From Letharia columbiana (lineage: Eukaryota > Ascomycota > Lecanoromycetes > Lecanorales > Parmeliaceae), in NCBI RefSeq assembly GCF_014066305.1, contig NW_023501063.1, forward strand, positions 248,001-312,000: a stretch of 64,000 nucleotides of DNA, given 5' to 3'. Below are positions 31,286 through 33,364 of this stretch, piece by piece; positions within the stretch are counted from its first letter, which is position 1, and every line of letters starts with the position of its first letter. A model generated the notes under the pieces. The model was not told the origin of the DNA, ran no database searches, and saw only the letters and a list, made by a program, of their open reading frames with translations. The position numbers and the translations under genes are program-made.

Positions 31286-33364
31286 TCAAGGATCCCAGTT
31301 CTTTATCTTCATAGTCCCATGGTCGTTGAGCTCCTTATGCATTTTGAAAGTCTGCCAGAGCATATGAGGCTCGTGACCCCAGCCCTTCTTTAGACACTCA
31401 TATTCTGCTCGCTCAAAGTAGTCCAGCAGAATGGGCTTGTAGTCTGGATGTGCTGTTTTATTGATAATGACGCGGGCTCGCTCGCGAGGAGAAAGACCAC
31501 GAACATCAGCAAGGCCTTGTTCTGTTACAACAACGTCGAGATCGTGCTCAGTCTGATCCACGTGCGTGCACATTGGAACAATGCATGAGACGCCCTATCA
31601 GCATTTCGCAGTCAGTATTGCCTATTCGAGGAGGTACATTGGGCCTCGACATTTGTATCGAGAGTAAAGGCTCCCAAGACATGTCTCAAGACTCAACGAT
31701 CCAAAAGGGGAAATATGGGCTCCGAAAATACGTACTGTGGGGTCTGTCTTGGATGGGCGAGTCGAAGGTGTGTGCATAATACTAATCTTCGCACTTCGCA
31801 AGAAGTCTGCAGAACCTCCCAAGCCATTCAACATTCTCGAGCCCATGACACAAGTCGAGTTAGCATGGGCATAAATATCACTGTCACTGTATTAGTGCAG
31901 AAGAATTGCCGGATTTCTGGCAAAGACTTACACTTCGACAGGGGTGTTCATGCCCTGAATTACAATTTCGCAGTCAGTATTGCCTGTTTGAGGGGAAAAT
32001 TCGAGCGTTGGAACATGTTTCGGAGGTAAACACTGCCCAAGAATGTCTCAAGGCTCAAGAAATTGTCCAAAAGAGAAAATGATGGGCTCTGAAATACTTA
32101 CAATGACTCCCAATCGTCGAATGATCTCAGGTGAGTTGGAGACTTGTTGGGACCGCAAGAGCAGCTTCCCAGCATAATTCTCCCAGCCATCATAGAATCT
32201 CTTAAACCCATCAGGAGAGAACCTGATCGATGTTGCAGTTGCGAAGTCGAGATGACCGCTGTCGAAGAGGTCTAGGAAGGAGTCTTGAAGCACCTCCGTC
32301 CAAACCTTGAGCTTATCGAAATTATTCCCGTGGGCTAGACCCCCTACTACAGCATTCGCAATGTTTCCAATGCCAGACTGTATGGGCAATAGGCTCTTGG
32401 GAAGCCTATCTTGTGCAACTTCATGCTTCAGGAACTCGATCAGATGTGCAGCGATAGCCCTAGATGTATCGTCCTCAGGAGCATTTCCTTGCGTCTGATC
32501 AGGGTAGTCGCTCTCGACAATGGCCACAACTTTCTCCGGATCGACTGGAATATGAGCGGTCCCAATCCGATCTTCAGGAGACATAATGAGATAAGGCTTC
32601 CTTCGCGGCGGCAGATCAGTCATCGTAATGTCGTGTAGTCCTTCAAAACTTGGCATGGCTGTGTTCACTTCTATAATAATCTTGTCTGCCATTTGTATGA
32701 GCTCTGGGGACGCTCCCACACTTGCACCAGGAATCTATGAAGACTATTAGCCAAGATGCGGTGCAAGATCACGGCTGTAGGCGTACGATGCCTCCGTCTT
32801 CCGTGATAGCTGAAGCCTCCACAATGACCACATCTATTTTTTTGTTTGGCTTGTCTTTCGTGTAGTAACCCTATCTATTTCAGCAAAGGTATTGACCCAG
32901 CTCCATCAGTGCGTACTCACGTACATCAAGTCCACGGGGAACATGCTTAGATGCTTGTCGAAAAAATGTATCCTGCCCTCATTGATGCCTTTTGCAATCT
33001 CTTTCCCAACTTGATGAGGACTCCGACGCTCAATCATGTCCAACCTTGCCCATCTATTTTCCGTCTCTGCTCCGCTGGACGCTCCTACAAACAAGGAGTA
33101 CTTGAGCTTCCCTTGTAATTTGTTCTTCTCCACATGATCGGCAAGGGCGGTAGGAACCTTTCTAGAGGCGTTGTGAGACCGATTGATATGGCTTGAGCTT
33201 CGAGGCACCTACTTCGGATAGCCAACACCTGTAAAGCCGGACCAGCCAACGCTGGCACCGTTGGGGAAAAGGTCAATTAGATCAGAGGTTTTTGATAATT
33301 TGTTAAGCATCGAGGGCCGACGAACTCGGCTCTTTAGCAATGCTGAAGCTGTCATGGAAGACAT
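31286..33364 (-). CDS. ACH1: acetyl-CoA hydrolase / succinyl-CoA:acetate CoA-transferase
   Basis: Seven exons: 33364-33213, 33161-32921, 32870-32787, 32734-32102, 31954-31932 (23 nt), 31880-31736 and 31594-31286, giving 528 aa, the usual Ach1 length. All joins restore conserved text: FTGVGYPK/KVPTALADHVEKN, FPVDLMY/GYYTKDKP, EDGGI/IPGASVGASPE, IIRRLGVI/GMNTPVEV, VDIYAHANSTC and DPT/GVSCIVPMCTHVDQTEHD. The active-site Glu region (VTEQGLADVRGLSP) is present. The mitochondrial enzyme moves CoA between succinyl-CoA and acetate and serves growth on acetate. Four introns are 50-52 bp; introns 4 and 6 are 147 and 141 bp and resemble each other. Met 33364 is chosen because MTASALLKSRVRRPSML follows at the family start. 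Divergent from RTC5. Confidence 0.96.
31595..31735 (-). repeat. introner-like intron copy B (ACH1 intron 6)
   Basis: 141-bp intron, reading gtacgtattttcggagccca to gcaatactgactgcgaaatg then ctgatag on the coding strand. It is similar along its whole length to ACH1 intron 4. Shared blocks, in order, include cttttgga, ttgagacat, tcttggg, ctcgaa and an identical 20-base stretch ggcaatactgactgcgaaat. It carries its own donor, branch (actgac) and acceptor. Confidence 0.85.
31955..32101 (-). repeat. introner-like intron copy A (ACH1 intron 4)
   Basis: 147-bp intron, reading gtaagtatttcagagcccat to ggcaatactgactgcgaaat then tgtaattcag on the coding strand. Similar to the 141-bp intron 6 of the same gene, from donor to acceptor, with small indels. 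Other ACH1 introns (50-52 bp) show no such similarity. Confidence 0.85.

Follow-up and report, generated by a model that had tools for sequence, protein, structure and literature searches.

Two ACH1 introns as probable independent gains from one family of introner-like elements of inverted-repeat ancestry

The stretch of DNA analysed here, which we will call the window, is 64 kb long and carries a gene for acetyl-CoA hydrolase, ACH1, interrupted by four regular introns and two long ones (Table 1). Both acetyl-CoA hydrolase Pfam domains are found in the spliced product. The junctions of the long introns, 4 and 6, fall at codons 370 and 428, both within the C-terminal hydrolase domain (residues 335-487), and the Pfam domain spans both of them in the spliced product. 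As judged from the sequence, the two introns are probably spliced out of the ACH1 pre-mRNA. No Rfam family matches within the window at its gathering score.

A preliminary description of this DNA had presented introns 4 and 6 as homologous and near-identical, aligning from donor to acceptor, and the other four as unrelated introns of 50-52 bp. Comparison within the window bears out the homology, with 75.7% identity over 140 columns (E-value 5e-17) and a local score of 58, whereas 1000 dinucleotide shuffles reach 15 at most. However, near-identical is too strong a term for an identity of about 75%, and while the alignment does run from the donor on, the final 8-10 nt before the acceptor cannot be aligned between the two introns; the tail to the acceptor is recognisable family-wide (see below). 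The identical 20-base block that had been pointed out is indeed present in both. It lies in the presumed branch-site region, where the G-C-A-A and C-T-G-A-C columns are nearly invariant across 81 related copies. Introns 1, 2, 3 and 5 score 7, 7, 6 and 9 where the 95th percentile of the shuffles is 9, and thus show no similarity, in line with the claim, but intron 5 falls short of the length range given for it.

Table 1. Positions within the window of ACH1, its introns and an intron of the neighbouring gene.
Feature	Position	Strand	Remarks
ACH1 (acetyl-CoA hydrolase), start codon to stop, introns included	31286..33364	-	530 aa spliced
ACH1 intron 1, regular, 51 nt	33162..33212	-	
ACH1 intron 2, regular, 50 nt	32871..32920	-	
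ACH1 intron 3, regular, 52 nt	32735..32786	-	
ACH1 intron 4, family-1 introner-like element, 147 nt, phase 0	31955..32101	-	HMM 119.8, model 1-147
20-base identical block GGCAATACTGACTGCGAAAT in intron 4	31965..31984	-	presumed branch site, by resemblance only
ACH1 intron 5, regular, 45 nt	31887..31931	-	
ACH1 intron 6, family-1 introner-like element, 141 nt, phase 0	31595..31735	-	HMM 131.7, model 1-142
20-base identical block GGCAATACTGACTGCGAAAT in intron 6	31603..31622	-	presumed branch site, by resemblance only
GT..AG intron, 144 nt, in neighbouring TLDc-domain gene; degenerate element nearer family 2	34639..34782	+	family-2 HMM

Six DNA searches of the 52.2-Mb assembly (161 contigs) revealed at least 84 unique sites of the family to which introns 4 and 6 belong (family 1). 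A profile built from 30 copies was used to place the copies; both ACH1 introns are among these 30, and so were scored in Table 1 by a model that they helped to build. Two sites, C11:260432 and C41:36424, were dropped from the counts because the model matches them only from an internal position onwards (23 and 43, respectively), one copy outside the 84 sites, C71:177622, was added, and C30:512786 was left out of counts that need an acceptor. The profile match starts at the donor in 83 copies, 68 of which begin with GTACGT, and 82 of the 83 end at an AG near the model end (CAG in 41, TAG in 38 and AAG in 3), the remaining copy having no AG there. The modal length is 147 nt (34 of 82 copies). Removal of C101:43221, a duplicate of C68:9064, left 81 copies. 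The elements at these two loci (C68:9064-9555 and C101:43221-43712) are near-identical or identical although they sit on different contigs, their near flanks match as well, and they represent segmental duplicates or assembly haplotigs; the same description applies to C109:29719 and C77:208431. Homology covers the whole length of the element, with a mean column identity of 82% among the 30 copies and 68% among the 81. It ends at the splice sites, since mean pairwise identity of the 81 copies is 0.68 in the first 30 bases of the intron, against 0.26 and 0.25 in the 30 bases flanking it on either side.

The coding context was analysed by removing the element and joining the flanks. With a minimum of 25 open codons on each side of the junction, 71 of 82 joined frames pass in sense and 30 of 82 in antisense, and with a minimum of 55 codons, 39 of 82 and 6 of 82, respectively; at random points and strands the frame is open in 42% (25 codons) and 17% (55 codons) of cases. 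The 25-codon threshold is weak alone because, when flanks are swapped between different copies, a mean of 59.6 of 82 joined frames still pass it. The 11 copies without a 25-codon sense frame on both sides include ACH1 intron 4, which lies close to intron 5. A reading frame remains open through the intact element in 3 of 82 copies, and the three intron phases account for 27, 25 and 19 of the 71 open-frame copies. Many copies that fill introns and lie in coding orientation had been named beforehand as the expected sign of an introner-like family, and this is what the genome contains. A Pfam domain, of varied kinds, lies across the junction in 17 of 20 joined products, which is not a random rate, as the products were chosen by eye from 40 of the 45 passing a length cut, with preference for those that looked like known domains. 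One of the 17 domains crosses by two residues only and another scores below the curated cut-off; the three misses are a NUDIX and a Helicase_C domain beside the junction and one product without a domain.

For two of the host genes we compared the joined product with the rest of the genome. The aldo-keto reductase query gene is split exactly at the element, and all six paralog matches that span the site are uninterrupted, two of them containing stop codons; five further matches do not span the site, and the paralog at C17:904734-905415 is uninformative, as its match is interrupted close to the insertion site (between query residues 107 and 139). For aldehyde dehydrogenase all nine site-spanning paralog matches are uninterrupted (one contains a stop), and one piece stops short of the site. 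The intron is absent at the insertion site in paralogs of both genes examined. Since these paralogs are only 30-50% identical, what is seen is absence at the site and not a dated gain.

The elements are clustered. In 157 kb around 51 index elements there are 31 further elements, 30 of which share the strand of the index element nearest to them, against none in 24 kb of arbitrary sequence and one in the rest of the window. The direction of this enrichment is real, but its size is uncertain, because the control is small and maybe partly intergenic, the duplicated C68/C101 pair is counted twice and one element is perhaps split. Strand and distance suggest that most close pairs lie within a single gene, the ACH1 pair being the annotated exception. 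Seven pairs of family-1 copies lie within 3 kb of each other (one pair on opposite strands), with an identity of 0.68-0.74 between the partners, and every copy has a closer relative elsewhere in the genome (0.72-0.95), so that neighbouring copies represent separate insertions.

The ACH1 pair follows this pattern: intron 4 shares an identity of 0.88 with the copy at C68:37785, intron 6 one of 0.84 with that at C22:714666, and the two introns only 0.74 with each other, and in a midpoint-rooted tree their common ancestor holds 37 of the 81 tips. Introns 4 and 6 are thus separate insertions from different branches of the family. The earlier interpretation of the pair as a gain by a mobile element of an introner-like family is supported, with the correction that each copy is closer to one in another gene than to its partner. 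Their position about 360 bp apart in one gene might instead suggest that a single ACH1 intron was duplicated locally (in tandem, segmentally or by gene conversion), with no mobile element involved. The nearest-relative identities and the tree rule this out, 82 further family-1 sites are known, and the seven close pairs behave in the same way; we therefore regard local duplication as highly improbable. Still less credible is the idea that unrelated old introns resemble each other in their splice and branch signals or composition only. The best-conserved stretches do include the donor and the presumed branch site, yet the similarity is not confined to such signals, as the preliminary description had allowed that it might be: the whole-length alignment and the shuffle scores rule this idea out, and the other four ACH1 introns lack the similarity. 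ACH1 introns 4 and 6 are thus very probably members of a single family of introner-like elements (ILEs), each gained independently of the other. Repeated gain in one gene is a known tendency of such elements, as genes with two ILEs are described for Passalora in the accessible part of PMC4457414.

Scanning the flanks of family-1 sites uncovered a second, related family (family 2), with elements of ~155 nt of the form GTACGTACATTTCGGAG ... GCAATGCTGACTCCGAAATCTGCGTAG. One genome search gave at least 40 sites; 40 loci were fetched, and after dropping the partial loci L137-L139 and L111, a duplicate of L110, 36 were retained. The arm motif, with up to one mismatch, has 86 forward and 87 reverse matches in the genome, compared with 2 and 2 for a reversed-pattern control, and since a single element may hold two arms these matches do not equal a count of elements. 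Family 2 shares the edge behaviour of family 1. One degenerate element nearer to family 2 occupies an intron of the TLDc-domain gene next to ACH1 (Table 1): the family-2 HMM matches positions 34652-34775 (E-value 1.9e-8) and a rebuilt model matches 34651-34774 (6.9e-5), the joined frame is open and the TLDc domain lies downstream. Its symmetry is gone, the self-complement score not being above shuffles. A weaker family-2 match on the minus strand of the window at 3028-3171 (E-value 0.002, not listed at 1e-4 with the rebuilt model) is possibly a very decayed element, or chance.

Among the copies listed, with duplicated loci left out, identity to the nearest neighbour has a median of 0.867 and a maximum of 0.946 in family 1, and a median of 0.891 and a maximum of 0.974 in family 2. 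There is no sign of very recent movement in either family among these copies: the best pairs reach 94.6% and 97.4%, which gives no support to present activity, although younger copies may exist beyond those listed. Near-identical, presumably active ILE copies have been reported for some families only.

The family-1 profile also matches many family-1 elements in reverse complement. Self-complement scores exceed all 40 shuffles of the same copy in 43 of 81 family-1 and 30 of 36 family-2 copies, and among the six best copies of each family the self-complementary span extends up to 5-136 or 6-139 of ~147 positions in family 1 and 2-154 of ~155 in family 2. The consensus sequences align with their own complement over positions 6-139 of 147 and 2-154 of 155, with scores of 54 and 57, while the means of the copies are 20.5 and 27.9. 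Terminal inverted repeats (TIRs) are present at the consensus level in both families and decayed in many copies; the two ACH1 copies themselves retain little symmetry (P 0.04 and 0.24). Both families descend from a near end-to-end inverted repeat, and the copies have lost much of the symmetry. We read this to mean that the propagating sequences were symmetric and that single copies drift after insertion. When symmetry was first measured as identity over gapped columns, copies and shuffles were alike (0.63 versus 0.65 and 0.67 versus 0.65), and the measure did not track closeness to the family; the score-based one took its place because gapped identity is inflated in shuffles.

Folding gives a related picture. 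The minimum free energy lies below the mean of the copy's own shuffles in 79 of 81 family-1 and 35 of 36 family-2 copies, and folding energy tracks closeness to the family among family-1 copies (rho -0.37), with no such relation among those of family 2 (rho 0.16). With default settings RNAalifold finds almost no consensus fold (four pairs at -0.04 kcal/mol), whereas with ribosum scoring it finds a long hairpin. In a consensus hairpin the share of paired cells is 83.3% and 88.2%, compared with 26-47% once the structure is slid, a measure that favours a structure derived from the same sequences. There is no excess of compensatory base changes in family 2, and in family 1 they are slightly up (42 cells against 30.2 expected, with 7 of 500 shuffles coming as high), an increase that could stem from relatedness alone. 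Without a clear compensatory excess, selection on the fold of single copies is unsupported.

No target-site duplication (TSD) was found in either family. At offsets from -12 to +12 the two boundaries match each other about as often as expected by chance: the largest z is +2.2 for the 82 family-1 copies and +1.5 for the 36 family-2 copies, the most negative z in both families together being -2.5. The flanks are biased nevertheless, differently in each family. In family 1 a pyrimidine is found at -5 in 63 of 81 copies (P 2e-6) and at -2 in 61 of 81 (P 2e-5), against a background of 51%, and AG at -2/-1 is found in none of the 81, against 6%. The pyrimidine share is 0.85 and 0.88 at -5 and 0.78 and 0.80 at -2 in phase-0 and phase-1 copies, respectively, but the bias is absent in the 19 phase-2 copies (0.47 at -5, 0.58 at -2), so that codon context may contribute to it. 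In family 2 the base at -1 is G or C in 34 of 36 copies (P 2e-8) and that at +1 is A in 22 of 36 (P 3e-7), with AG at -2/-1 in 8 of 36. All of these P values are post hoc, since the motifs were noticed after looking at the data. Family 1 thus lacks the AG/GY site preference that is attributed to van der Burgt et al. in the accessible text of PMC8469720, and differs in this from the ILEs of Dothideomycetes. ACH1 intron 4 and its closest relative (C68:37930, L010) share GTCATT just before the donor; the L010 gene has no Pfam match.

How would such elements spread, then? The family-1 unit is very probably a short (~147 nt), non-coding, spliceable sequence that carries its own donor, presumed branch site and acceptor, and that makes a new intron by inserting in a transcribed gene. 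Insertion within genes, mostly in sense, of a unit with both splice sites is observed directly. The excised, folded intron RNA could be the mobile form, re-entering active genes via reverse splicing or RNA-templated repair. We lean towards this RNA route over a foldback DNA transposon because the preference for genes and for one strand suggests a link with transcription, and because the symmetry belongs to the propagating sequence and not to the resident copies. Selection against unspliceable insertions in exons could produce the same preference, although it would not clear intergenic copies, and palindromy alone also fits a foldback DNA element. The elements would in that case be non-autonomous, MITE-like foldback DNA transposons, moved by a transposase, whose TIRs happen to encode splice sites. 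End-to-end inverted-repeat ancestry, covering nearly all of the family-2 consensus, is consistent with such an origin; the family-specific flank preference could be that of an integrase, and most introner families outside the ascomycetes have TSDs, TIRs or both, according to the accessible part of PMC9860276. However, the TSD expected of MITEs is absent here at every offset examined in both families, the edges of the elements coincide with GT and AG, and the bias in genes is to the sense strand. We consider transposase-driven movement unlikely, while the excised intron RNA as the mobile form is moderately favoured.

The closest description of comparable elements is that of the ILEs of Dothideomycetes (Fulvia fulva, Dothistroma septosporum, Zymoseptoria tritici and relatives), which, as far as the accessible text of PMC4457414 describes them, are likewise canonical introns with many similar copies in unrelated genes, longer than the regular introns of 50-55 bp, organised in several families per genome, at times gained twice in one gene and degenerating with age. 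The likeness to the published families drawn here is one of description, and the host here appears to be a lecanoromycete. The symmetrical sister introns and stwintrons of Hypoxylaceae (accessible parts of PMC8469720 and PMC12403724) resemble the present families in their long inverted-repeat symmetry, seamless insertion without TSD, fading of the symmetry in divergent copies and function on the coding strand only. They differ in that they carry a 10-nt palindrome, TTTCTAGAAA, which is absent from both consensus sequences here, in that many of them are nested twin introns, and in that no flank bias is reported in the accessible account, whereas each family here has one, noticed post hoc. The introners of algae and other eukaryotes with TIRs and TSDs are also genome-wide intron-making elements, many with inverted repeats (PMC9860276, accessible part); unlike them, the families described here lack TSDs and bring both splice sites with the element. 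The same part of that article states that ascomycete introner families have neither TIRs nor TSDs and notes that ascomycete introners were previously read as RNA-based. The inverted-repeat ancestry found here, as in the Hypoxylaceae work, contrasts with the TIR-free statement.

The preliminary description, in likening the introns to those of Dothideomycetes, had implied a host of that class, which the protein comparisons do not support. The closest ACH1 matches are from Hypocenomyce scalaris (91%), Xylographa pallens (90%), Pycnora praestabilis (90%), an Acarospora (89%) and Loxospora ochrophaea (88%), with Talaromyces and Pyrenophora behind these five at 86%. Hypocenomyce, Xylographa and Loxospora, three of the five, belong to Lecanoromycetes and Pycnora to Candelariomycetes; all four genera we take to be lichen formers. 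Of the 120 matches listed for a one-exon isoleucyl-tRNA synthetase gene, the named ones that come nearest are from Mycoblastus sanguinarius (Lecanoromycetes, 65%) and Cladonia (62-63%). The host is therefore likely to be a lecanoromycete, and probably lichen-forming as judged from that class. In the open-access main texts that we searched, we found introners described neither for lichen-forming fungi nor for Lecanoromycetes. As far as this search shows, we are dealing with a known kind of element in a new host class.

Where spliceosomal introns come from is a long-standing open question, and few sources of new introns are as visible as ILEs. If they are indeed unreported in Lecanoromycetes, the phenomenon extends to another large ascomycete class, and the palindromic families add a case of inverted-repeat ancestry against the claim of TIR-free ascomycete introners. 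The many independent insertions also allow target choice, such as flank motifs and genes hit repeatedly, to be measured. We tentatively suggest, as a possibility that we hold below even chances, that the two palindrome-derived families choose their sites by different exon motifs (in family 1 a pyrimidine at -5 and -2 with AG avoided, in family 2 G or C before the element and A after it) and that they re-hit the same genes many times, in sense and from different branches. If this were true, intron birth would be directed by transcription together with family-specific pairing or integrase contact with the target, and the site code of intron gain would therefore be readable and testable.

Several arrangements of elements and other repeats were noted along the way. 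At L102 (C34:217426-217673) a complete family-2 element abuts the apparent 3' end of another at the junction L102:50/51, with no base between AG and GT. At L056 (C12:1109118-1109411, minus strand) a family-2 element is followed by one base and then by a family-1 element, and the single base would form an exon of 1 nt, unless splicing took place in two steps. Two overlapping partial family-2 matches at C71:175630-175848 (minus strand) are possibly one element with an internal duplication of ~60 bp. Within the window, an inverted repeat of ~51 bp (6054-6104 and 6681-6730, 92%, outer ends ~677 bp apart) is a candidate MITE, further short direct-repeat families are found at 11161-11668 and 7296-7391, and a minisatellite with a spacing of mostly 18 bp occupies 12678-13121.
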